Assembly: GCA_017467305.1 (NCBI GenBank)
Contig: JAFTSM010000042.1
Location: 1 to 63,686, forward strand
Source of the DNA: Candidatus Gastranaerophilales bacterium
GTDB taxonomy: Bacteria > Cyanobacteriota > Vampirovibrionia > Gastranaerophilales > Gastranaerophilaceae
Length of the DNA: 63,686 bases
Direction: 5' to 3'
Below, one piece after another: positions 7,497 through 57,932 of this stretch. Both the position numbers and the translations under genes were made by a program. The notes below the pieces were generated by a model that searched no databases, was not told where the DNA came from, and worked only from the letters and a program-made list of their open reading frames with translations. The number at the start of each line of letters is the position of its first letter. Position 1 is the first letter of the stretch.

Positions 7497-9386
7497 TTAA
7501 ACTATTGGTTCTTTTCTTATGTAATAAGAATTAAATGTTTCCACTAATTTTGTTTCTTTTGCAGTTGGTTCTTCTTTTTTCAAAATTCTAGCAAAATCAT
7601 CTAATGTTATTGTTGCTAATAACTTTCTATCTTTATCTTTCAAGTGCATTTCAAATTCGCTTAATAAAACTTCCATTAGAATATCGCAAGGAATACTCAA
7701 AAATGCGTCGACTATTTTACCGTCAAAATGCTTATTTTTACCTTCAAGCATAATATCTAAAACATTATTCATTGGCATCCTATCACGGTAGTGACGAACA
7801 GAAGTAATAGCATCAAATACATCACTTACAGCTAAAATCCTACCACCAAATGGAATTTCTTCACCTTTTAGACCTCTAAAATAGCCTGTTCCATCATATT
7901 TTTCGTGGTGTGAAGCTGCTATTTCTGCAATTTCCATAAAGGAAGTACTCATATTTGTTTGACGCAAAATATCATATGTTATTTTTACGTGTTCTTTAAT
8001 ATGTTCATACTCTTCTTTTGTTAAAGAACCTTTTTTCTGTAATACCGCGTCACGAATACCAATTTTACCTATATCATGAAGCATTGCAGCCCTTGCTATA
8101 ATTTGAGTTATATCTTGATTTAGCTTCAGCTGATTACAAATCAATTCTGAATACAAGCGAACACGCTTTGAATGACCTAATGTAATTTTATCACGAGCAT
8201 CTATTGAGGCAGCTAATGTATCAATAAACCCAGCAAATAACTTTTGTTGTTCATCAATCATTTGTTGTTGAATATTGAACAAAAGATTATTTTCAATAGC
8301 AATACCAGCATTTGTGCCGATTGCCAATAAAATTTCTTCATCAGCTTCTGTAAAATCACCGTCTTTTTTATTTAAAACTTGGAATACGCCAATAATTTCA
8401 AATTTGATGTTTCTTATCGGCATACAAATTAAATTATATGTTCTATAACCAGTATGTTTATCAATTTCTTTATTAAAGCGACTATCTTTATACGCATCTT
8501 GAATAATAATTGTTTCACCAGTATTAACAACGTGACCAGCAAATCCTTTATCCGAAGAAAAACGTATTTCTTCACTTTCCATACCCAACGCAACTTTAGA
8601 CCACAATTCATTCTTCTCTTTATCTAAAAGAAAAACAGTACATCTATCTGCATTAAGCACCAATTTTGTTTGTTCAGCAATAGTCATAAGAAGTTTATCA
8701 AGATTTGCCTCAGCGTTAACTGTTCTTGCAATCTTTGACAAAGCCAACAACAAGGTTGTTCCCTTATCTGGGTCTTGCTTTTTCTTTAATTGCTGTTTAT
8801 AACTACTATTCAATGTTGAATTTGTATTAATAAAATTCTCTGATATTTCAACAAGTCTATCTGTTAAAGCAACCAAACCTAATTCTTTTGATAAATTAAT
8901 CGCTTTTTCTAAATATTCATAAGCCAACTTAGCATTTTGTAAGCGAATATATGTTAAAGCCAACAATTCAAAAGCTCTAACTCTTATCAAAGGATATTCA
9001 TCTAAAGCAACTGCAGCATACGCCAAATAAAACACCGCTTCATTAAATTTATTCTCGTGAAAATATATTTCACCAAAAGCAAATTTATTTACAGCAAATA
9101 CATCTTTATCATTTGAACTCTCAGCTAAAAATTTAGAATCTTCTAACAACAATAAAGATTTATAATAACTTTCATCCTTATTAATATATTTAACCAATGC
9201 GGTCAAAGATAAACACACAGATACTTTTGAAATATCTTTATGGGCTAAAAATATCTTATGCGCTAACGATAAGCTAGCCACAGCTTGCTTATAATTACCA
9301 TTACAATACAGTTCTATTGCATCTCGCAAAAGGATTTTTGCGCTATCCACCGACTCATATAACATATCATTATGCTTTTTAGGCAT
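7497..9386 (-). CDS. TPR-GAF-HD-GYP protein, predicted c-di-GMP phosphodiesterase
   Basis: About 629 residues. The N-terminal 190 residues are helical TPR-like repeats, then a GAF domain (roughly 230-370) for ligand sensing, then an HD-GYP domain. The metal-binding HD motif is intact (MLHDIGKIGIRD), with HHEKYDGTGYF where the canonical motif reads GTGYP, so the final Pro is Phe. The catalytic centre looks competent to hydrolyse c-di-GMP (family knowledge). The ATG at 9386 is chosen because AAGGA lies 5-6 bp upstream; a longer reading to 9422 would need a TTG start. No signal peptide or membrane span is seen, so it is cytoplasmic. Co-oriented with the NarL-type regulator downstream. Confidence 0.88.
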   Translation of the reverse strand: MPKKHNDMLYESVDSAKILLRDAIELYCNGNYKQAVASLSLAHKIFLAHKDISKVSVCLSLTALVKYINKDESYYKSLLLLEDSKFLAESSNDKDVFAVNKFAFGEIYFHENKFNEAVFYLAYAAVALDEYPLIRVRAFELLALTYIRLQNAKLAYEYLEKAINLSKELGLVALTDRLVEISENFINTNSTLNSSYKQQLKKKQDPDKGTTLLLALSKIARTVNAEANLDKLLMTIAEQTKLVLNADRCTVFLLDKEKNELWSKVALGMESEEIRFSSDKGFAGHVVNTGETIIIQDAYKDSRFNKEIDKHTGYRTYNLICMPIRNIKFEIIGVFQVLNKKDGDFTEADEEILLAIGTNAGIAIENNLLFNIQQQMIDEQQKLFAGFIDTLAASIDARDKITLGHSKRVRLYSELICNQLKLNQDITQIIARAAMLHDIGKIGIRDAVLQKKGSLTKEEYEHIKEHVKITYDILRQTNMSTSFMEIAEIAASHHEKYDGTGYFRGLKGEEIPFGGRILAVSDVFDAITSVRHYRDRMPMNNVLDIMLEGKNKHFDGKIVDAFLSIPCDILMEVLLSEFEMHLKDKDRKLLATITLDDFARILKKEEPTAKETKLVETFNSYYIRKEPIV

Positions 9387-48645: not shown

Positions 48646-49428
48646 TTAAAAGATATTTGCAAAAGACATAAAAAAGTCTTCTATAACATTTAATAGAGAA
48701 GGAAGTACAACAATTAAAATTGCAGAACCTAAACAAGGCTTAAATAAGAAGCTCATTGTAAATACGTTAACTTGAGGTGCTGTTTTAGAAATAATACCAA
48801 GAATAATATCTTGCCCTAACGTAGCAAGTAATACTGGACCTGCAATTTGTAAGCCCACATACAATACGTTGGAAGTGACTTTTATCAAATAAGTCATATT
48901 AACAATTTCATCTAATGGAACAAATGTTCCATATACTGGAAATATTTCAAAACTTCTAATTAAAGCATTAAAAGTCCAATAGGCACCACCTATTTTTAGA
49001 AAAATAATCAATCCAAACAAACTAAATAATCTACCCATAATAGAGATTTGAGTTGATGTGGTTGGGTCCATAATCATTGCAGAAGAAACACCTTGTTGCA
49101 TGTTAATCATGTCACCACCGCTTTCAACTGCTCTTAAAATACAGTTAACAATAAATCCAATTAAAGCACCGCATAAAAAGTTTATTACAATTGAATATAT
49201 TATAGAAACACCAACTTCTGGTGGAGCTGGCTTTAGAACCATAGAAAGAATAACTGTAAAAATAAGCGTAAATCCTACTTTTGCAATCATTGGAATTTCA
49301 CTTCTTTGTAAAAACGGAGCAACCCTCATGAGCCCAGCAATTCTTGCAAATATTGGAACACCAGCAGCTAAAATATTATTTACCTCTGGAAAATATTTTG
49401 GAAATTCATTAATAATTAAATCTAACAT
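48646..49428 (-). CDS. fliR: export-apparatus membrane protein FliR
   Basis: 260 residues with about six membrane helices; FARIAGLMRVAPFLQRSEIP near the N-terminus and GGDMINMQQGVSSAMIMDP in the middle are characteristic of FliR (SctT). It is a core gate component of the flagellar or type III export channel together with FliP and FliQ. Its ATG shares a base with the stop of the preceding gene (TAATG), so translation is coupled. flhB and flhA are not in the window. Confidence 0.93.
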   Translation of the reverse strand: MLDLIINEFPKYFPEVNNILAAGVPIFARIAGLMRVAPFLQRSEIPMIAKVGFTLIFTVILSMVLKPAPPEVGVSIIYSIVINFLCGALIGFIVNCILRAVESGGDMINMQQGVSSAMIMDPTTSTQISIMGRLFSLFGLIIFLKIGGAYWTFNALIRSFEIFPVYGTFVPLDEIVNMTYLIKVTSNVLYVGLQIAGPVLLATLGQDIILGIISKTAPQVNVFTMSFLFKPCLGSAILIVVLPSLLNVIEDFFMSFANIF

Positions 49429-49799
49429 TATTTACCACCAATCAATGTAGCTGGTAAATCAATCATAATCAAATCATCAGATTCATCTTGAAAATCTGGG
49501 CCAACAACAAATCTTACTTGATATAAGTTTTCTTCTGTTCTAATACTAACATCACTAACTCCACCTTGTTTTGCTTCAATTAAAAGCATTCTTTTCTCAT
49601 TAGCAAGAGTAGTCATTGTTGAAACATTAACCGATTTTTCATTTACAACATTATATTCAAGAACCTTTGAAGGAACTGTTAAGATATAAATATTATTTTC
49701 TTTTAGATTTAGCAAATTCACATTTGTTTCAGAAAGCTTACAAAAACCATTTGAAACACTGAAAAATAATGCTAAAAATAAAAGAAAATACTTTTTCAT
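49428..49799 (-). CDS. secreted secretin-N/pilus-formation-type domain protein
   Basis: 123 residues with a clear Sec signal peptide (KKYFLLFLALFFSVSNGFC, ending with a Cys at about residue 20 that could even be a lipobox-like site, though the preceding residues are not ideal). The mature part (IYILTVPSKVLEYNVVNEKSVNVS, later LLIEAKQGGVSDVSI) resembles the pilus-formation/secretin N-terminal domain (Pfam T2SS-T3SS_pil_N type) found in CpaC/PilQ-like secretins. It is wedged between fliQ and fliR in a tightly packed operon, an unusual place for such a domain. Confidence 0.72.
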   Translation of the reverse strand: MKKYFLLFLALFFSVSNGFCKLSETNVNLLNLKENNIYILTVPSKVLEYNVVNEKSVNVSTMTTLANEKRMLLIEAKQGGVSDVSIRTEENLYQVRFVVGPDFQDESDDLIMIDLPATLIGGK

Positions 49800-50303
49800 C
49801 TACCTTCTATTCTCCATTATCTTTTTTCTTTCAACAAGGTTTGGAGTAGGAACTTCTGTAGCGCCATTTCTCAAAAAGTTAAATTTATCTTTTTGAGCAG
49901 TGCCTTGAGGTCTGGTTGTATTCTTTAAAATATGAGACATTGGAGTCATATCTTTTTTAACATCTGTTTTAATTTCATCTATAAAAGGTTTTGTATAGTT
50001 GTAATAATCAGAAGGAAGAACAAAACTATCTTCTTTTGGAACAACTTCAAAAGCAAGATTTGCACCTTCTATAAAATAATTAGTAAGCATTTTTACATAA
50101 GTAGAACCAAGTAAAATAATTACAAGGAATACTGTAAAAATCTTAGGTGCAGCTGCAATAGTTTGTTCTTGAACTTGAGTTACAGCTTGCAAAATACCAA
50201 CAACAAGACCAATAGCTGCCGCTGTTAATACGCAAGGCATAGCTATCATAAGCATTGTCATTAAACCTTTTGCAAAATATTCCATTAATATTTCCATACT
50301 CAA
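49800..50303 (-). CDS. fliQ: export-apparatus protein FliQ with long C-terminal extension
   Basis: The first 88 or so residues are a standard FliQ: two membrane helices, AIGLVVGILQAVTQVQEQTIAAAPK in the first half, and ILLGSTYVKMLTNYF. FliQ is normally about 90 residues; here another 80 polar residues follow (YYNYTKPFIDEIKTD..., rich in Lys, Asn, Pro), predicted disordered. The codons run on without a stop, so it is not two genes. Adjacent to fliP (5 bp). Confidence 0.9.
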   Translation of the reverse strand: MSMEILMEYFAKGLMTMLMIAMPCVLTAAAIGLVVGILQAVTQVQEQTIAAAPKIFTVFLVIILLGSTYVKMLTNYFIEGANLAFEVVPKEDSFVLPSDYYNYTKPFIDEIKTDVKKDMTPMSHILKNTTRPQGTAQKDKFNFLRNGATEVPTPNLVERKKIMENRR

Positions 50304-50308
50304 GCCCC

Positions 50309-50950
50309 TTAATTAAAGCTTCCTACAAGTCCGTTAACTATTAATCCCCAACCGTCTACGGCAATGAATATCAATAGTTTAAATGGCAACGAAACAATAG
50401 TTGGCGATAACATAAACATCCCGAGTGCTAACAGTACGTTCGCAACAACCAAGTCTAGTACAATAAATGGAATAAATATAATAAAACTTATTTCAAAAGC
50501 TGTTTTTAATTCACTTAAAATATAAGCTGGAGCAACTTCCCAAATAGTTACATCTTCAATGGCTGGTGGTGCTTCTTTTCTTGTTAATTGCACAAAGAAA
50601 GCTAAATCACTTTCTCTTGTTTGTTTTAACATAAACTCTTTTAATGGCTTTGAACCTTCACTCAAGGCAAGGACAATTGAACCATTTTTCTCGTAAGGTT
50701 TTGAGCCAAGTTCATACATTTGTTGAAAAACTGGTCCCATTGTATAGAAGGTTAAAATAACAGAAAGTCCAACTAAAACAATTGGTGGGGGAATTTGTTG
50801 TGCACCCAAGGCTTGTTTTAAGAAACCAAAAACAATTGCATATCTTAAAAAGCTAGTCATACAAACAAACATAAATGGTAAAAGCGAAAAAGTTGCCATT
50901 ACCATCAATAGTTGTAATACAGGACTTAAATCCTTTAAAACTGTATCCAT
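50309..50950 (-). CDS. fliP: export-apparatus protein FliP
   Basis: 213 residues with four membrane helices. FMFVCMTSFLRYAIVFGFLKQALG and QIPPPIVLVGLSVILTFYTM are the FliP/SctR signature regions; the C-terminal VLLALGMFMLSPTIVSLPFKL is also diagnostic. It is shorter than flagellar FliP of E. coli because the cleavable N-terminal signal segment is missing, as in many SctR proteins. Together with FliQ and FliR it forms the export gate. Confidence 0.93.
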   Translation of the reverse strand: MDTVLKDLSPVLQLLMVMATFSLLPFMFVCMTSFLRYAIVFGFLKQALGAQQIPPPIVLVGLSVILTFYTMGPVFQQMYELGSKPYEKNGSIVLALSEGSKPLKEFMLKQTRESDLAFFVQLTRKEAPPAIEDVTIWEVAPAYILSELKTAFEISFIIFIPFIVLDLVVANVLLALGMFMLSPTIVSLPFKLLIFIAVDGWGLIVNGLVGSFN

Positions 50951-50952
50951 TA

Positions 50953-51312
50953 TTAACCTCTACCTAGTTTTTGTAATATTTTAGAATCTATAGAAAACCC
51001 AGTCATTTTATTTTTAACATTATTTTCTTCAACTTTCATATCTTCTTCTTCCAATTTAACGTCATTTTCTAATTTTGCTAACATTGTTGTATTAGCGGTA
51101 TCTCCAGCAATTAAAAACTTTTCATTACCAGCTTTTATTACATAAACTGTTTTTGTTGCAGATAAACGCAAAGTATTTTCCACTTTCAAAAAATCTTTAT
51201 TCGGAGTATTTGCTGTTGAATAAACAGTCTTTTTATATACATAAATTGCAAGGGCTAAAAAACCAACCATTGCAAGTGTATAAACAGCAAAATTAACTAA
51301 ATAACCGTTCAT
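50953..51312 (-). CDS. FliO-like single-pass membrane protein
   Basis: 119 residues: one N-terminal membrane helix (VNFAVYTLAMVGFLALAIYVY) and a small basic domain with LRLSATKTVYVIKAGNEKFLIAGDT, matching the FliO domain that assists FliP assembly. Position between fliN-like and fliP supports the call. A short acidic coiled tail follows. Confidence 0.8.
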   Translation of the reverse strand: MNGYLVNFAVYTLAMVGFLALAIYVYKKTVYSTANTPNKDFLKVENTLRLSATKTVYVIKAGNEKFLIAGDTANTTMLAKLENDVKLEEEDMKVEENNVKNKMTGFSIDSKILQKLGRG

Positions 51313-51321
51313 AAACTTCCT

Positions 51322-52518
51322 CTAAATACTTTCATCTTCTATCTCAAAGTCACTGTAGTCAAAGTTTTCATCACCTTCTGCCGGTTGTTTTTCTGCGCCA
51401 GCTTGCTTAGGTGCTACATTTTTCACTTGTGGTGCTTGTTTTTCCGCAGAAATTGGTGTTCTAGAATTTGAAGTTTCATCTGTTCCTAAGTCTTTTGCTT
51501 TTTTAACCTCATTAATTCTTACACCATATCTATCATTTAATATAATGAGTTCACCAGTCGCAACCACTTGATTTTCAACACGTAATTTAATCTTGTTTTC
51601 ATAAACTGAACCAACATCAATAACCAAACCTTCAGAGATTTGTTTTAGTTCTCCAAGTGTTAATTTAACATTATCAAATTCTGCAACGACGTCTACAAGA
51701 ATCGAATCCCACATATTCTGTGATTTCAAACTTGTTTCTTCTTCCATTTCATTGCCTCCATTATTATCAATACTTACTATTAAAGATGGATTAGGATTTA
51801 TTCTAAATTTAATCTTATTTCTTTGCCATAAAACAGCCATTTCATTGATATTACTATTTTCAAGAACAATAATATCGCCATCTTCAATTTCTTTTATATC
51901 ATTCAAAGCTAGTCTTGTTGAACCAACACTAAGAGTTAACTCTGTACGAGAACGTTTAAAATCTTCTATTCCAAAAGTATCTTTTCTTTTTTCCTTAGGT
52001 ATTTCTCCAAACATATACTCTGGAACAGAAACAATAATTTTCCCTTTATGTTTTTTTCTATTTTGAACATAAAAAGTAAAACTACAATCTTTAGAAGAAT
52101 CTATAACTTTTTTATTAACCTCTGTTTTTACTAATGAAGGTTCAATTTTTTTGTATAAAAATGATATAAACGATTTTATCAATCTTGCTTCGATATCGGA
52201 AAGTTCTTTTAGCTTGAATGGCTTATTGTTTACACCTAAAGAATCGTCTAATAATGCAGAAACCAAAGTCGATGAAATTTTAACTGTTACACCAGAATCT
52301 TTAATTACTGGAATTTTATTTACAAAATACTCATCACCGTAAAATAAAATATTATCATCTAAAGAGATGCCCATAAATCTGAGGCTAAAATCTTTTTGAA
52401 AGAACTCAGTAATTGCATCTTGAATTTTTTGATAAACGTTAGTGCTAAACCAACTGTAGTTATCAAATAGGATATTATCTTTAGTTTTTTCAGCTTTTAT
52501 TGTCTTTAATGTTGCCAT
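51322..52518 (-). CDS. FliN/SctQ-like protein with two SpoA domains
   Basis: 398 residues. After an N-terminal FliM/SctQ-like region come two SpoA domains: roughly residues 190-255 (VGSTRLALNDIKEIEDGDIIVLE) and 275-345 (LDVVAEFDNVKLTLGELKQISEGLVIDVG, then NDRYGVRINEV), with an acidic disordered tail to the end. Two SpoA domains in one chain recall SctQ or FliY; it is the C-ring/sorting platform component of the export machine. AGGG lies 7 bp before the ATG. First gene of the operon. Whether the system is flagellar cannot be told, since flagellin, hook and motor genes are not in the window. Confidence 0.8.
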   Translation of the reverse strand: MATLKTIKAEKTKDNILFDNYSWFSTNVYQKIQDAITEFFQKDFSLRFMGISLDDNILFYGDEYFVNKIPVIKDSGVTVKISSTLVSALLDDSLGVNNKPFKLKELSDIEARLIKSFISFLYKKIEPSLVKTEVNKKVIDSSKDCSFTFYVQNRKKHKGKIIVSVPEYMFGEIPKEKRKDTFGIEDFKRSRTELTLSVGSTRLALNDIKEIEDGDIIVLENSNINEMAVLWQRNKIKFRINPNPSLIVSIDNNGGNEMEEETSLKSQNMWDSILVDVVAEFDNVKLTLGELKQISEGLVIDVGSVYENKIKLRVENQVVATGELIILNDRYGVRINEVKKAKDLGTDETSNSRTPISAEKQAPQVKNVAPKQAGAEKQPAEGDENFDYSDFEIEDESI

Positions 52519-52712
52519 TATTAACCCTAATCCTTATCCCTCAAGAATACAATATATTTTTTAGATAAAATAATACCAAAGCAATATACTGTCCTTTAAT
52601 TTATTTTAAGGTTTTTTGGATTTTTATCAAGTTTGTATCCTTGTTCGTAACAAATGGCTGTATAAAGTAAAATTAATGTAGAAATATAAAAAATGAAAAT
52701 TATAATTTTGCA

Positions 52713-54386
52713 CTAAAAATCAAAATATTGTTGGAATATCATTTGGTCTGGAATATTTTCTTTATATAACTGTTGAAGAGTTTTTCTTATTTTTTTTATG
52801 ATGTTATTGTACTCTTCTGTGTTGTCTTTTTCTGTTAGTATTTCCTTGATTACTTCTATCGATAATTTATTAATAAATTTATGGAAAAATGCAACATCTG
52901 ACTCAGTATAAGTTTCCATTAATTTACTATTTATTTTATTATCTAGTGAACCTTTTTGTTTTTGATAAGAGTATTCTTTTATCATGTTGATAATATTTTC
53001 TCGTTTTATAGGATATTTATCTATCAGAATATCTGCATATTTTATGGCTTTATTGTAATCATTTAAAATAAGAGAACATAAAATTAGAATATATTCAATT
53101 GGAAATTTGTTAGTTATAGAAAATTGTAATATAGGATGTTTACATAAAAATTCAAGTAAATTTTGTAATTCTATAATATTTTTATTGGACAAATTGACAT
53201 CTTTTTTTAAATGAATCCACTTATTCATCAAATAAAATTGGGATGCATTTAGATAAATATGCTTTGACATATTGGGTATATAAATAGAAATAGTAGGAAA
53301 TCCCAAAAAAGAAACATTTCTAATATATATTTGCCTATTTGTTATTTGCTCTATATTATTTATTATAAATTTTAGTAATTCTTTGTTTGATGTTTTTGGG
53401 GAAGGAATGATCCAAGCACCATAATTAAATTCAAAAGACGCTTTGTTTAAAATAAATTGGTTTAACAAGTCCTCATTATCCTTGAAAAAAATGCTACAAA
53501 GAATGAGCTGTTCATACAAAGTAATCGGATTATTTTTTATATATTTATCATAGTATTCTTTTGTTATGTATATTCTTTTATCTTTTTTATTTTTTTCATT
53601 TTCTGAAAGATTTCTTCCTTGAAAGAGTTCTGTTAATGCCCTTTCTACTGCTACTGGTAAAGTTGGGTGAGATCCCATAGAGAAAATTAATAAATTTTCT
53701 TGTCTTTTTATAGCAACAACACATACAACAGGTAGATTAAGTCCAATTGAGGCATCTTTTATATAAACTTCGTATCCATTTGTTTCATAGTAATTAATAA
53801 TTTCTTTTATATTTTTATAATTTTCATATAATTCTTTTGGAATATTGGGAAGAGAATATTTGTTTGTTAAAACTTCTTTTATAGCATAACGTTCGCAAAT
53901 TTCAGAAAGTCCTTGTACTATCGCTTCTTCAAATGTATTTCCAGCGGCTAGTCCAGTTGTTGTTTCAAATAAATATAGTGGTACATCAACAACTGTTGAG
54001 TTTTTAACACTATAAAAAGGAATGGTTTCAATATTTTTTGATTCTATATCTATTTTGGTATTACACAAAAGATTTTTTTGGATTTTTTTTATATTAACAA
54101 GGGTTGTGTCAGGATACTTAAATGGTATAAGTTCTAAATTTTGTAATCTTTCCATAAATTCGCCATATGCACTTGCTAATGAATTTTCAACGCAAGTTCC
54201 CTTGCCGTTTGATCCAATTCTTGTATTTACAATATTAATTCTAGTGGAAGGACATAATTTAAGTTTTTCTTTATCATTTGAAGTAAATTCTTCTTCAATC
54301 TCAATTTTATTTCTTCTAAGTATTTCTTTTATTTTGGTTATTGTAACTTGTGGTTTTTCGTCTTTATATATGCTATATTTTGTCAT
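52713..54386 (-). CDS. ycaO: E. coli-type YcaO protein in a RiPP operon
   Basis: 557 residues. The YcaO ATP-binding blocks are clear: GSNGKGTCVENSLASAYGEF (59-78), AAGNTFEEAIVQGLSEICER (around 150-168) and SHPTLPVAVERALTELFQGR. These, and the helical repeat tail (NDYNKAIKYADILIDKYPI), match the E. coli YcaO subtype better than cyclodehydratases with the PxPxP end; here the chain ends in QQYFDF. YcaO enzymes activate peptide amides with ATP to make azolines or thioamides. It is the last gene of the five-gene operon, 20 bp after the U32-like gene, so it probably acts on the precursor encoded at 56779-56922. Confidence 0.88.
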   Translation of the reverse strand: MTKYSIYKDEKPQVTITKIKEILRRNKIEIEEEFTSNDKEKLKLCPSTRINIVNTRIGSNGKGTCVENSLASAYGEFMERLQNLELIPFKYPDTTLVNIKKIQKNLLCNTKIDIESKNIETIPFYSVKNSTVVDVPLYLFETTTGLAAGNTFEEAIVQGLSEICERYAIKEVLTNKYSLPNIPKELYENYKNIKEIINYYETNGYEVYIKDASIGLNLPVVCVVAIKRQENLLIFSMGSHPTLPVAVERALTELFQGRNLSENEKNKKDKRIYITKEYYDKYIKNNPITLYEQLILCSIFFKDNEDLLNQFILNKASFEFNYGAWIIPSPKTSNKELLKFIINNIEQITNRQIYIRNVSFLGFPTISIYIPNMSKHIYLNASQFYLMNKWIHLKKDVNLSNKNIIELQNLLEFLCKHPILQFSITNKFPIEYILILCSLILNDYNKAIKYADILIDKYPIKRENIINMIKEYSYQKQKGSLDNKINSKLMETYTESDVAFFHKFINKLSIEVIKEILTEKDNTEEYNNIIKKIRKTLQQLYKENIPDQMIFQQYFDF

Positions 54387-54406
54387 ATTTACTTTCTAAA
54401 GAGTAT

Positions 54407-55369
54407 TTAGGGATTTATAAACAGTGCTGTTTTTCTATCATTTTGTATTATTTCAGCGCATATTTTATCTATTTTATTTCTAATTTCCTCTTTTGAGTAT
54501 TCGTTATTGAAGAAATTTTTATAAAGCTCATCAAATAACCAGTAAAATGGTAAAGAACGACCTTGTATTTTAATCTTTTTTACCCCTTGTTCAATAGCTT
54601 TTTCAACTTGTGCGGAAGTTAAATATACACTACGATAATAATTGCTATCTTTAGGACATAAACTGAAGTGTTCATTATTATTATTTGTATGATGTTTTAC
54701 GGTTTCTATTTTTTCACATTTTTCAATTTCTTCTACAAAATTGTAATGAGTTCTATGATGAGGACAGTTATAATGACAATTTTGATTGATTAAAATTTCA
54801 ACTCTTGATATATCTGAAATTAAATTATTAAGTTTATCAATATTATCCATAACATATTCTGGACGAATTACTACAACTTCACATTTATCAAGCATTTTGT
54901 TATAAAATTTTGTTTCATCAAAGTTTTTTTCTTCAACTATTTTCGTGCTAGGTATTATAACAGAACTGTGAATTTTTGCATTTGGATAACGAGATTTAAT
55001 GTGTGAGTATAGTTCTTTTGTAGATATAATAATTCTGCATTCTAATGAGCACGCTATATCAAGTAAATTATTTGAATATTCATCATTTAATTTATTTTTT
55101 GCATTTAAATTTGTAAATGTAAAAGTTGGGATAACATTGTATTTTGTTTTTAATTTCTGTAAATATCTTTCGACAAAATTTAAATTATCTAGTCTGAAAA
55201 CCGATAATCGTGCACCTATTCCCCATTCGCAAAAAGGTGTACCATAAACATATTTGATTGGATTTACCTCATCTTCAAAAAGTTTATATAATGTAGGTAT
55301 AAATAAATCATTACAAAATAAAAATGGCATAAAATATTCTATGTTGTTATATTTTGCTAAATTTTTCAT
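54407..55369 (-). CDS. U32-like protein in a RiPP operon
   Basis: About 320 residues, no close relative recognised. Four cysteines (198, 202, 218, 238; C-x3-C-x15-C-x19-C, in NQNCHYNCPHHRTHYN, EKCE and SLCPKD) and the C-terminal KIKIQGRSLPFYWLFDELYK recall the U32 'peptidase' family, whose UbiU/UbiV/TrhP/RlhA members carry an iron-sulfur cluster and support oxygen-independent hydroxylation. A TIM-barrel-like N-terminal half is plausible. The ATG at 55369 lies two bases after the radical SAM stop; a TTG 24 bp earlier gives a longer reading. Likely a tailoring enzyme or peptidase for the precursor. Confidence 0.68.
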   Translation of the reverse strand: MKNLAKYNNIEYFMPFLFCNDLFIPTLYKLFEDEVNPIKYVYGTPFCEWGIGARLSVFRLDNLNFVERYLQKLKTKYNVIPTFTFTNLNAKNKLNDEYSNNLLDIACSLECRIIISTKELYSHIKSRYPNAKIHSSVIIPSTKIVEEKNFDETKFYNKMLDKCEVVVIRPEYVMDNIDKLNNLISDISRVEILINQNCHYNCPHHRTHYNFVEEIEKCEKIETVKHHTNNNNEHFSLCPKDSNYYRSVYLTSAQVEKAIEQGVKKIKIQGRSLPFYWLFDELYKNFFNNEYSKEEIRNKIDKICAEIIQNDRKTALFINP

Positions 55370-55371
55370 TG

Positions 55372-56706
55372 CTATTTCTCGTTTTCTGGGCAAACAAGTG
55401 CGTTATAATACGCTTTTGCATTTTCACATAATATAGGGTGCTTCTTCATAAAATTTTTCTCAAATACAGATGAATCGGGGCAATAATGGCAATAACTACA
55501 GTATTCCTCGTTGAAACATTCTGTTAGATTTTTTCTAATAAATATCTTTTTAAAATCTTCAAGGGTTGTTTCTTTGATTTTCTCAAGAGTTGTAGAATTT
55601 AAATTTCCTAAAATATATTCAAATGCGACACATGGAATAACGTCTAGTTTTGGTGTAATACATAATCTATCATATCCAGCTTCACATATAGAATATTCAT
55701 CTTTAAAAAATCGTGGTTTAATTTGATTTACGCCAAACTTATCAATATAAAATTGCTTAATTTCTTTGTAAGAAAGTTTTGAATTTAAATTACTATTTTC
55801 TGGATTATTAGTAAAAACACAGTTATCACGATATTCAACACCAATTGAAGTCGCGTATTTTTGAACTTCTTTATAACAATCTTTATTATAAGATAAAACT
55901 GGAGTTGCAATATCTATGAAAATACTTGTCTCTTTTAATTTTTGTATAACATTGAGTGTTTTTTGCAGTGAACCTTTTACGCCAGTTATATAATCGTGAA
56001 TATTTTCTTCCATACTATATATACTAAATTGTATACGTGTTGGATATAGTTCTATAACTTTATTTAATAATTCTTTATTATCATTAAAAATTTGCCCATT
56101 TGTATATATACAAAGTTCCAATCTTTTACTTCTTATGTATTCACATATTTTAAGAAAATCTTTGTTAAGAGTACACTCCCCTCCTGTTAATCTTACACAA
56201 AGAATCCCTAAGTCATAAGCTTCATCTATAGCTTTTTTCGCTTCTGCAAATGTTATGCTATACTTTTCCATATCTTTATGGTTAAAACAGTGTTTACATT
56301 TTAAGTTGCATTTATAATTTAGCTCTAAAATTAAAGTGTCAATAAGTCCTAAACTAGTTGTTAATTTTTTCCATTTATCTAAAAAATAATAAACATTGGA
56401 ACTTTTGCGGTTTAAAGGTTTTGAGAGAAAATTAAAATTCGTTTTTTTAAAATTTTTATCTGTTTTTATTATTCTTCTTTCTTTTAATTCAGATAAAAAA
56501 GAATTGAATTCATCACCTAAGTTTTTGTCTAAAGCAAATGATTTTATTTTATTATAATTTTTGTATTCAACAATTACATCCCACAGATATGAAGAAATAC
56601 CTTTTAGAAAATAATATAAATTATGCCTTGCATCATAGATTAAACTGAACGAGTTCTTATCATCAATATGATGTGTTCTTGTACATATATATGAATATAT
56701 TTCCAT
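55372..56706 (-). CDS. radical SAM/SPASM peptide maturase with N-terminal PqqD-like domain
   Basis: 444 residues from the ATG at 56706 (AAAGGG 7 bp upstream). Residues 15-85 fit a PqqD-like RiPP recognition element (FSLIYDARHNLYYFLKGISSYLW, then FNSFLSELKERRII). The radical SAM core has Cys133-x3-Cys137-x2-Cys140 (CNLKCKHC) and RLTGGECTLNKDF. The C-terminal SPASM-type region is Cys-rich (ICEAGYDRLC, then FNEEYCSYCHYCPDSS). This is the architecture of peptide-modifying maturases such as PqqE and sactisynthases. It follows the precursor gene by 72 bp. Confidence 0.9.
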   Translation of the reverse strand: MEIYSYICTRTHHIDDKNSFSLIYDARHNLYYFLKGISSYLWDVIVEYKNYNKIKSFALDKNLGDEFNSFLSELKERRIIKTDKNFKKTNFNFLSKPLNRKSSNVYYFLDKWKKLTTSLGLIDTLILELNYKCNLKCKHCFNHKDMEKYSITFAEAKKAIDEAYDLGILCVRLTGGECTLNKDFLKICEYIRSKRLELCIYTNGQIFNDNKELLNKVIELYPTRIQFSIYSMEENIHDYITGVKGSLQKTLNVIQKLKETSIFIDIATPVLSYNKDCYKEVQKYATSIGVEYRDNCVFTNNPENSNLNSKLSYKEIKQFYIDKFGVNQIKPRFFKDEYSICEAGYDRLCITPKLDVIPCVAFEYILGNLNSTTLEKIKETTLEDFKKIFIRKNLTECFNEEYCSYCHYCPDSSVFEKNFMKKHPILCENAKAYYNALVCPENEK

Positions 56707-56778
56707 CGCATATCCCTTTATAAATGTAGTGTATATTTGCAAAATGTAACAAGCGTCTATAACAAAATGCGATTATAG

Positions 56779-56922
56779 TTACCTATGTTCTGCTGCGTAT
56801 ACTTTTGGTAATCCACAAACTGTTGCAATTAAGGGCTCTGGCATTTCAATAACATCTTTATATAGCTCATTAATATCTTCAATTGAAAGATCATTAATAT
56901 CATCATCATTAAATTCTTTCAT
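56779..56922 (-). CDS. RiPP precursor peptide, 47 residues
   Basis: Small gene with a textbook ribosome-binding site (AAAGGAG, 7 bp before the ATG) that overlaps the stop codon of the ATP-grasp gene. The N-terminal 26 residues are acidic and helical (FNDDDIND, LSIEDINELYKDV), like a leader peptide; then comes MPEPLI and a short basic C-terminus ATVCGLPKVYAAEHR with one Cys at position 36 and two Tyr/Pro sites. There is no signal peptide. Its place directly before a maturase with a PqqD-like domain makes it the likely substrate of the operon's enzymes. The core boundary is inference. Confidence 0.8.
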   Translation of the reverse strand: MKEFNDDDINDLSIEDINELYKDVIEMPEPLIATVCGLPKVYAAEHR

Positions 56923-56934
56923 GATAATTCTCCT

Positions 56935-57837
56935 TTATTTTAACGTTAAATTTTTAAATAATTCTTTATAGAAAGCTTGATATTGCATTTCGTCGGGTAT
57001 GAAACCAGATAGTGGAGTAAAAGTCATTTCACCAAAATATAATTGGTTATTATATATCATCCAATCCACACGAACAAATTTAAATCCTTGAGAAAGAATT
57101 TTACTTAAATGCTTTGATTCTTCTCGAAATTTTTTACTTTCTGTGTAAGGTACTGAATCTACACACCATACCCAAAATTCTTCGCCGATTTCATTTATAT
57201 TTTCACGCAAGAGTGGTTCAATAAGAATCTTAGGTTTGATATTTATATACTGTGCTTCAAAATCACTAAAGCCAAAGAAGTTCTGACCAAGCCAATTATC
57301 AAATCTGGCTTTACTATAGTTATAAAGTTTTTTGTTTGAAAGATACTCCTCTTTATTTTTAACTATGATATGCCATTTACATCCGTGATTTGCCTTTATA
57401 ACAAAAGAATTTGGAAGTGTATCAAATGGAATCTCCTCAAATCTTTCACCAATCCATAAAATTGGCTTTAAGTATCTTGAACCAATTTTACTTTCTACAT
57501 AATCGCGAACTTTTATTTTATCCGTTAAGTTACTTTTTATTGGACTATTATCATACAACTTAAGCCATTGGATTTTTTGGCTAAGATTTTTAGGCCATTT
57601 TAAATTTAATTTTTCACCAGTTTTATTGTAATAGGCTTCTTTTAAATATTTTGGATAATCTTTTTTTTGTAAAGACATCATAAACTCATAACAAAAAAAT
57701 GCGGAATCTTTATTCTTTAGCCTTCCTTGATTAATATCTGAAGAATCGTAGATTACACCATTTATTCTTTTGGAAGCTTTTTCAACAAAAGTTTTTATAT
57801 AATTTAATAAGTCATTCATATTTTCATTGTACTTCAT
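56935..57837 (-). CDS. TupA-like ATP-grasp protein, first gene of the RiPP operon
   Basis: About 300 residues. KVRDYVESKIGSRYLKPILWIGERFEEIPFD, FVIKANHGCKWHIIV and FRVDWMIYNNQLYFGEMTF with TPLSGF closely fit the TupA-like ATP-grasp family, some members of which act in teichuronopeptide or polysaccharide synthesis. ATP-grasp enzymes form amide or ester bonds on carboxylates. Only 12 bases separate it from the precursor gene, so it is in the same transcript, but its involvement with the peptide is inference. The ATG at 57837 follows an A-run without a clear ribosome-binding site; an ATG six codons later is an alternative. Confidence 0.8.
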   Translation of the reverse strand: MKYNENMNDLLNYIKTFVEKASKRINGVIYDSSDINQGRLKNKDSAFFCYEFMMSLQKKDYPKYLKEAYYNKTGEKLNLKWPKNLSQKIQWLKLYDNSPIKSNLTDKIKVRDYVESKIGSRYLKPILWIGERFEEIPFDTLPNSFVIKANHGCKWHIIVKNKEEYLSNKKLYNYSKARFDNWLGQNFFGFSDFEAQYINIKPKILIEPLLRENINEIGEEFWVWCVDSVPYTESKKFREESKHLSKILSQGFKFVRVDWMIYNNQLYFGEMTFTPLSGFIPDEMQYQAFYKELFKNLTLK

Positions 57838-57932
57838 TTTTTTTTTCAAGTTGAAATCGTCAATTTGTACGATATCAAATCATTCAAATTTTAATATACT
57901 AAACAAACAGATATAGTATTTATTGAGGGATT

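Follow-up and report, generated by a model that had tools for sequence, protein, structure and literature searches.

Evidence for an apparently undescribed modular family of ribosomally synthesized and post-translationally modified peptides in Gastranaerophilales

Introduction

What would a bacterium make from a 47-residue peptide whose gene lies among those of an ATP-grasp enzyme, a radical S-adenosylmethionine (SAM) enzyme, a U32-like protein and a YcaO protein? This question is raised by a five-gene cassette at positions 52713..57837 of contig JAFTSM010000042.1 from Candidatus Gastranaerophilales bacterium (assembly GCA_017467305.1), the whole of which, 63,686 nucleotides long, we refer to as the window. 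An earlier note on this DNA had proposed that the cassette is an operon for a ribosomally synthesized and post-translationally modified peptide (RiPP), standing alone as one isolated system in which four enzyme types act on one precursor. The RiPP operon is strongly supported because the precursor has a conserved leader and a hypervariable, Cys-containing core, a neighboring enzyme combines a RiPP recognition element (RRE) with radical SAM and SPASM domains, and the genes were inserted together. Instead of being isolated, however, the cassette is a member of a modular family in which the ATP-grasp protein is the most constant enzyme. We judge this family to be real and apparently undescribed, with a chemistry that we infer, and in our view the interest of the cassette lies less in the oddity of one operon than in its membership of a family that is modular and hypervariable.

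Results

The five genes all lie on the minus strand and are separated by gaps of 12, 72, 2 and 20 bases, exactly as the earlier note had described. They sit in an inserted unit of about 5.2 kb (52637..57853), delimited by comparison with an empty site and by the gaps between flank genes, in a 1.85-Mb assembly of 75 contigs that is 89% complete. The flank genes, one methyltransferase-like (57933; a label taken from its sequence, not a family search) and one FliN-like (52518), are adjacent to each other in relatives. Using gaps computed by hand from listed places, we found them 190-326 bases apart in 32 of the 33 relatives that have both on one contig, the exception (G025) having 1,287 bases and a different gene there, as compared to 5,414 bases in the window; the pair is split over two contigs in six further relatives, and two others are without one of them. 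Relative to the closest empty site (L252), homology ends near 52636 and restarts near 57854, the heptamer TCAAGTT is present at both insert ends, and the insert contains the five genes and no further plausible gene. The five genes came in together as one insertion, and the corresponding site is empty in 32 of the 33 comparable relatives; this common insertion is the best evidence that the YcaO and U32-like genes belong with the rest of the cassette.

The radical SAM/SPASM maturase (55372..56706, minus strand, 444 residues from its ATG) matches PF04055 (7.6e-21) and the SPASM family PF13186 (1.2e-5), and its structure model has a predicted local distance difference test score (pLDDT) of 93 and a predicted template modelling score (pTM) of 0.93. 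Ahead of the barrel, the model places three strands and three helices on the PqqD/RRE plan (about model residues 5-85; 56455..56697, minus strand), followed by the CxxxCxxC radical SAM motif identified by alignment (C134/C138/C141 in model numbering; 56287..56310, minus strand) and the SPASM cysteines C342 to C428 identified by Pfam and alignment (55426..55686, minus strand). The PqqD-like N-terminal domain that the earlier note had reported is therefore supported by the model and weakly by PF05402, which matches 5 of 45 maturase homologues at E up to 1 (best 0.003) and gives no match in the window protein; an N-terminal RRE is thus supported, with leader binding predicted. The closest solved structures to the model are CteB (5why/5wgg), SkfB (6efn) and SuiB (5v1t), with E values of 3e-15 to 6e-14 and TM scores of about 0.5 over the whole chain, and a profile search of solved chains agrees (SkfB, 9.9e-24). 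By modeled fold and sequence the maturase groups with these three enzymes. It has the RRE-radical SAM-SPASM architecture of sactipeptide and ranthipeptide maturases, and the precursor core has a Cys as potential sulfur donor; against the NCBIfam maturase models listed, the window protein scored 25 of 45 at best, and all of them were far under their cut-offs.

We then used the best 80 of 187 relatives returned by a scan of genome contigs with a maturase alignment. Twenty of the 42 genomes of the window genus have homologues with E below 1e-40, and a maturase was found in 5 genomes of a 146-genome sample of the family, 3 of these in other genera (G108, G110 and G162); the cassette family is found mainly in the window genus. 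A 75-row maturase tree, which excludes radical SAM proteins shorter than 350 residues or below 190 bits, contains a 42-row clade that includes the window enzyme (hereafter the clade maturases). Two close relatives, L073 and L093, lie on small contigs binned as Bacilli and Clostridia that are probably mis-binned Gastranaerophilales DNA or the result of recent transfer. At L037 (7460-10282) there are tandem maturase genes, identical over much of their N-terminal part and differing before it, which suggests gene conversion.

The precursor gene (56779..56922, minus strand) encodes 47 residues and has AAGGAG before its ATG, in agreement with the strong ribosome-binding site noted earlier ahead of a peptide gene that precedes the radical SAM/SPASM gene. 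The peptide gave no significant Pfam match; it matches our leader model at 6.5e-13, the window precursor being one of the model's ten seeds. The model places a predicted boundary between an acidic, Cys-free leader (residues 1-29; 56836..56922, minus strand) and a core with one Cys (residues 30-47, PLIATVCGLPKVYAAEHR; 56779..56835 with the stop codon, minus strand). Across the 31 precursors that it finds in these loci, seeds included, the leader follows the acidic consensus LSxxEINELFxDIIExP, and Cys accounts for 1 of 884 leader residues as compared to 58 of 731 core residues, so that 29 of 31 cores have at least one Cys versus 10.2 expected. Two leaders are identical at a median of 0.45 of their positions, as compared to 0.19 between cores and 0.17 between shuffled cores, and even in the 17 pairs whose leaders are at least 70% identical, the core median is 0.28.

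A precursor adjoins 38 of the 42 clade maturases, 28 found via the leader model and the others, at L093 and in nine basal rows, by eye. The remaining four are a maturase at a contig end (L044), one with no precursor seen (L042), the second tandem copy at L037, and L032, where an in-frame stop codon falls within the leader of the precursor reading frame (8300-8560). The nine basal clade members, which include four of the five loci with a YcaO gene, have by eye a basic KLKIxK-like leader and Cys-rich cores. These loci hence present the arrangement that marks a RiPP, namely a short precursor with a conserved leader and a separate core, adjoining maturases.

The first gene of the cassette encodes a TupA-like ATP-grasp protein of 300 residues from its ATG (56935..57837, minus strand), whose sole Pfam match at E up to 1 is PF14305 (4.9e-21); its open reading frame opens upstream of the ATG at 57837, at TTG 57849. 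A 30-sequence alignment has invariant Lys, Glu, Arg and Asp residues, and the profile found no match among all solved chains at E up to 1. Such an ATP-grasp lies within 3.2 kb of 36 of the 42 clade maturase genes, and four of the six without one nearby are at contig ends (L034, L035, L044 and L045). Together with the filling of one insertion by all five genes, this indicates that the grouping of the genes is not chance. Maturase and ATP-grasp distances also correlate (Mantel 0.76, p 0.001) over 29 pairs, from which enzymes under 380 residues, ATP-grasps of 240 residues or less, and L093 were excluded.

Away from the maturase clade, this leader also occurs beside TupA-like ATP-grasps, identified with a profile built in this analysis, in the company of other enzymes. 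At L269 (1449-5752), two precursors with this leader (4.5e-6 and 5.6e-6) lie between GARS-like ATP-grasps and near a TupA-like one, and no radical SAM gene was seen on the 6.7-kb contig; at L208 (5627-7845), a TupA-like ATP-grasp accompanies a Cys-rich acidic-leader peptide (0.0023) and a different radical SAM enzyme of 334 residues. The best shuffled control in the leader search of such loci scored 0.16. On contig C28 of the window genome, L230 (4354-7653) shows in a row the genes of a TupA-like ATP-grasp, one of the GARS-like type, a 47-residue acidic peptide and a U32-like protein, without a radical SAM gene; its peptide fails to match the leader model, and we regard it as a candidate U32-only modified peptide. 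The GARS-like ATP-grasp occurs on 15 contigs of the genus, and 9 of the 11 examined have a TupA-like one beside or near it, L271 and L275 being without. Because the same leader recurs beside the TupA-like ATP-grasp with other enzymes, leader and ATP-grasp appear to form a fixed pair around which the maturases vary, and the family's constant enzyme may be the TupA-like ATP-grasp rather than the radical SAM enzyme.

The ATP-grasp is, however, not general to the maturase superfamily, as Clostridia-type loci carry a protein of about 300 residues instead. Distant maturase relatives from Clostridia and other gut bacteria have a different precursor type (MLKITKVV...SGCGK..D..CGI) and no match to the TupA-like ATP-grasp. 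In Clostridia and Erysipelotrichaceae bins (L121, L122, L128, L131 and L135) the protein of about 300 residues stands directly before the maturase, and five such upstream proteins (L117, L119, L122, L130 and L131) had no Pfam match at 0.01. A 33-residue precursor of this type lies upstream in L122, L128 and L135, and the L122 peptide matched no NCBIfam family.

The last gene encodes a YcaO protein of 557 residues (52713..54386, minus strand) with a C-terminal extension like that of E. coli YcaO, identified by PF02624 (1.4e-44), by its best-matching solved structure, E. coli YcaO (4q84, 3e-62), and by a tree; its best NCBIfam match, YcaO_for_S12, is far under cut-off (174 of 700 bits). YcaO gave 25 matches in 17 of the 42 genomes, of which 8 were left out of a 17-row alignment and all had their surroundings examined; as sole query of genome contigs, the window YcaO found no relative. 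Five clade maturases have a YcaO gene within 3.2 kb (the window, L049, where it is divergent, L050, L053 and L056), where a rough uniform model expects 0.14 (P about 4e-7). A hand count places seven of the 25 within 3.2 kb of a TupA-like ATP-grasp, namely these five plus L201 and L203, and both YcaO genes of the window genome sit in RiPP loci. A strict ribosome-binding-site screen near 20 loci that have a YcaO gene, which missed the known L049 precursor and hence is not exhaustive, gave candidates only at L197, L198 and L207, none convincing as this leader type. At L201 (5662-8331), YcaO lies 12 bases from the TupA-like ATP-grasp with other CxxxCxxC proteins around it and no clade maturase nearby. 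A standalone YcaO gene lies between nrdD/nrdG and gltX by Pfam at L193 (879-10446), and, judging by the sizes of the genes, YcaO is likewise placed in several other genomes.

TfuA (PF07812) was not found in the window genome at its 89% completeness, with which TfuA-independent thioamidation remains compatible, and the YcaO C-terminus, NIPDQMIFQQYFDF, has no PxPxP end; these two results argue against the best-known YcaO chemistries. The azoline envisaged in the earlier note is disfavored, given the missing PxPxP end and the lack of an E1/ThiF-type partner in the insert, the one part of the genome in which a partner was looked for.

Between maturase and YcaO lies the U32-like gene (54407..55369, minus strand, 320 residues from its ATG), a candidate O2-independent hydroxylase. 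The window protein has no U32 Pfam match of its own, while PF01136 matches 10 of 23 aligned sequences at E up to 1, best 4.6e-5 for L216, just over the family cut-off. The structure model of the window protein (pLDDT 78), built from five sequences only, finds the U32 protein 5d88 as first solved match (E 4.6e-5, TM 0.49), unrelated barrel enzymes scoring nearly as well, and the profile had no match among solved chains at E up to 1. On these homologue matches and this predicted fold, we assign the protein to the U32 family. Three cysteines are invariant in the 23-row alignment, which excludes the L229 fragments and the distant L231 row, so that the earlier description as a four-Cys protein is only partly borne out; a candidate for the fourth of the cysteines that a 4Fe-4S cluster would require, in a C-x-W near the N-terminus, occurs in 18 of 23. 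U32-like proteins number 28 match rows, spread over 19 of the 42 genomes, and lie near 4 of 42 clade maturases (the window, L023, L028 and L049), with 0.15 expected under the rough uniform model. A few others (L224, L225 and L228) adjoin other proteins that carry a CxxxCxxC motif or weakly resemble the maturase. YcaO and U32 are optional add-ons that are commoner near clade maturases than expected by chance. We also considered a K-[V/I]-Y motif, common to the window and L023 cores, as a U32 target and set it aside as speculation, Tyr being present in 21 of 31 cores anyway.

The nearest relatives form a series: L073 has the ATP-grasp, precursor and maturase, L023 adds U32, and the window adds U32 and YcaO. 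In a second locus, L049, a different precursor is surrounded by ATP-grasp, U32 and radical SAM genes together with a divergent YcaO. The window cassette is the most elaborate member seen of its family, and a comparison of sequences suggests that related cassettes keep the leader and ATP-grasp, change the core, and gain or lose maturases. The question of whether relatives lack the small peptide gene or have the enzymes scattered, which the earlier note had made a test of its reading, has a split answer, as the ATP-grasp, precursor and radical SAM core holds together and YcaO and U32 are partly scattered.

Next to the insertion in the window (48649-52518) are FliO, FliP, FliQ (Bac_export_3), FliR (Bac_export_1) and FliN-type genes of a flagellar or type III export apparatus. 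Other cassettes occupy an apparent single chromosomal site with a response regulator on one side and an H+-pyrophosphatase on the other (assigned by Pfam on L048 only); L026, L042, L048 and L068 show both flanks, and L027, L030, L039 and L069 show one flank and a contig end. Cassettes at this site differ in cores and maturase subclades, like swapped alleles. Carriage by phage was unsupported, as viral contigs gave a single weak match (28% over 157 residues).

Discussion

We consider it probable that the cassette makes a RiPP from the 47-residue precursor through six steps. The leader (residues 1-29) would bind to the maturase RRE and also to the TupA-like ATP-grasp. The radical SAM enzyme would join Cys36 to a carbon of a nearby residue in a thioether (-2 Da), as CteB and SkfB do, and by this analogy a thioether at Cys36 is on balance likely. 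Since the cores that accompany the ATP-grasp share no sequence, it would act on a constant feature, most likely by ligating an amino acid or a small acid or amine to a peptide terminus, an assignment to which we give slightly less than an even chance. The U32-like protein would hydroxylate a side chain independently of O2 (+16 Da), a role that we put forward tentatively. The YcaO protein would phosphorylate and alter one backbone amide, yielding a thioamide or amidine rather than an azoline, and here we regard the chances as even. Finally, a protease encoded outside the cassette would cut off the leader. The free variation of the cores makes a cofactor role such as that of pyrroloquinoline quinone (PQQ) unlikely and points to diversifying selection, in microbial antagonism or signaling.

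A number of observations weigh against this scheme. The common insertion testifies to a joint history and not to a joint chemistry. Genes for a transporter, a protease or immunity were not found within the cassette, and no promoter is evident inside the insert, where about 16 bases separate the ATP-grasp ATG from the edge. Two of the 42 clade loci, L031 and L057, are without an ATP-grasp, and among loci with the acidic leader, maturase and ATP-grasp correlate weakly (0.25, p 0.019, n=21). Leader distances track maturase (0.29) and ATP-grasp (0.34) modestly, yet within the maturase the association is with the catalytic part (0.23, p 0.014) and is not clear for the RRE part (0.10, p 0.17), which speaks against simple leader-RRE coevolution; the RRE region is moreover shortened in the maturases of L043, L045, L048, L052 and L066, even though the leader there is the same. 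Core distances track neither maturase (0.01) nor ATP-grasp (-0.05). Cys is absent from 2 of 31 cores, and the single Cys of the window core is one for which thioether and azoline chemistry would compete. That four enzyme types serve one precursor, as the earlier note held, is favored by the common insertion and by the second locus, L049, and is weakened by the nearest relatives, L023 and L073, which lack YcaO, L073 lacking U32 as well (only about 490 bases of contig follow). Furthermore, 20 of 25 YcaO genes are not beside a clade maturase, nor are 21 of the 26 U32-like rows whose surroundings were examined (the G037 and G006 rows were left out of the 28); the five that are include two in L028.

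This scatter is the main argument for an alternative that we consider unlikely, in which the ATP-grasp and radical SAM enzymes make the RiPP unaided and the other two proteins are passengers, YcaO helping RimO on ribosomal protein S12, as it does in E. coli, and the U32 protein modifying RNA or a quinone. The match to E. coli YcaO, the best NCBIfam hit to YcaO_for_S12 (far under cut-off as it is), the lack of YcaO in the nearest relatives, the YcaO gene between nrdDG and gltX, and the failure of the strict, non-exhaustive screen to find a peptide gene near most YcaO loci are all in keeping with it. So is the wide presence of RimO, which scores above the threshold of its model in 40 of 42 genomes (in the window genome the match, G000:C54:10517-11800, has a TAA codon inside it). 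YcaO, however, is found in only 17; with one near universal and the other patchy, YcaO is not simply following the S12 pathway. The passenger explanation also has to contend with the five YcaO genes near maturases and seven near TupA-like ATP-grasps, the placement of both window-genome YcaO genes in RiPP loci, and the presence of YcaO and U32 inside the same insertion. Quite unlikely, in our view, is a graspetide, in which the ATP-grasp would join core acids to Ser/Thr/Lys in lactone or lactam rings, leaving the radical SAM enzyme a secondary part. The constancy of the ATP-grasp would fit, as would the Asp/Glu in 28 of 31 cores and Ser/Thr/Lys in 29 of 31, but the enzyme matches PF14305 and no solved chain, hence no solved graspetide ligase, at E up to 1. 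Moreover, 25 of 31 cores keep an acid once their first three residues are dropped and 6 of 31 do not, no fixed spacing of acid and nucleophile was seen by eye, and neither a graspetide-type ligase nor a conserved core pattern of acid and Ser/Thr/Lys was found among these unrelated cores.

TupA is named after teichuronopeptide synthesis, and this, with glycosyltransferase genes near some loci (L025 and L034), raises the possibility that the TupA-like ligase attaches the modified peptide to a cell-surface polymer, with the cores serving as variable surface epitopes, not secreted products. The inserted unit holds no glycosyltransferase and neighbors vary between loci, and we rate this as slightly less probable than a graspetide. 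It is very improbable that the small reading frame is not a precursor and that the true substrate of the maturase is a different protein: a peptide product is not known, but the conserved leader, ribosome-binding site, Cys-enriched cores, precursors beside 38 of 42 enzymes and RRE fold all speak for a precursor.

Like CteB, SkfB and SuiB, the window maturase has an N-terminal RRE, a radical SAM core, SPASM cysteines and Cys-containing cores to act on; it differs from the sactipeptide and ranthipeptide maturases CteB and SkfB in subfamily, in its TupA-like ATP-grasp partner and in the hypervariability of the cores. One lanthionine enzyme serves many precursors in the prochlorosins, whose pairing of a conserved leader with hypervariable cores, as with Nif11-type leaders, also comes from the cyanobacterial phylum, whereas in the present family almost every precursor is paired with a radical SAM enzyme of its own.

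Judged by enzyme type, a precedent for three of our four enzymes in one locus exists in the graspetide "branch 6" loci described in the main text of PMC8939145. These loci carry an ATP-grasp distantly related to the peptide ligase PGM1, a SPASM radical SAM enzyme and YcaO/TfuA, with a precursor not identified in most of them and products that, according to the authors, may fall outside graspetides; the ATP-grasp, SPASM enzyme and YcaO are common to our cassette, and TfuA is in branch 6 only (PMC8939145). The terms Tup and peptidase U32 are absent from that main text. Thioamidated RiPP clusters, as described in PMC8120280, combine YcaO-TfuA with radical SAM/SPASM genes and a Cys-containing precursor; relative to these, our cassette has no TfuA, its RRE is fused rather than standalone, and an ATP-grasp and U32 are added.

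The U32 oxidases comprise UbiU/UbiV, RlhA and, as a further member, TrhP. The substrates described for UbiU/UbiV and RlhA are a quinone precursor and RNA (PMC6747719, PMC11574389). The cassette protein appears to share with them a barrel fold with conserved cysteines, but its three invariant cysteines and frequent upstream fourth do not follow the CX6CX15CX3/4C pattern of these oxidases. The main texts of PMC12710340 and PMC10352776 contain no U32 term, and searches of the open-access literature, outside of which most subscription journals lie, for this enzyme combination, for U32 with a RiPP or with a radical SAM enzyme and precursor, and for RiPPs of Gastranaerophilales turned up no account of the present system.

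Tentatively, and at somewhat less than even odds, we propose an unrecognized Gastranaerophilales RiPP superfamily built on the TupA-like ATP-grasp and the shared leader rather than on any one maturase, which would have hypervariable cores, exchangeable maturases (the RRE-radical SAM enzyme, another radical SAM enzyme, a second ATP-grasp, U32 and YcaO), movement of whole cassettes and U32 peptide hydroxylation without oxygen. If this is true, peptide hydroxylation would be a new activity among known U32 proteins, and the cassette protein would carry it out free of O2. The same leader with varied cores and enzyme sets constitutes a natural combinatorial series that allows enzyme roles to be assigned by subtraction. 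It would give the TupA-like ATP-grasp, and possibly a U32 enzyme, a role in peptide modification, and would give an uncultured gut lineage of the cyanobacterial phylum a natural-product family.

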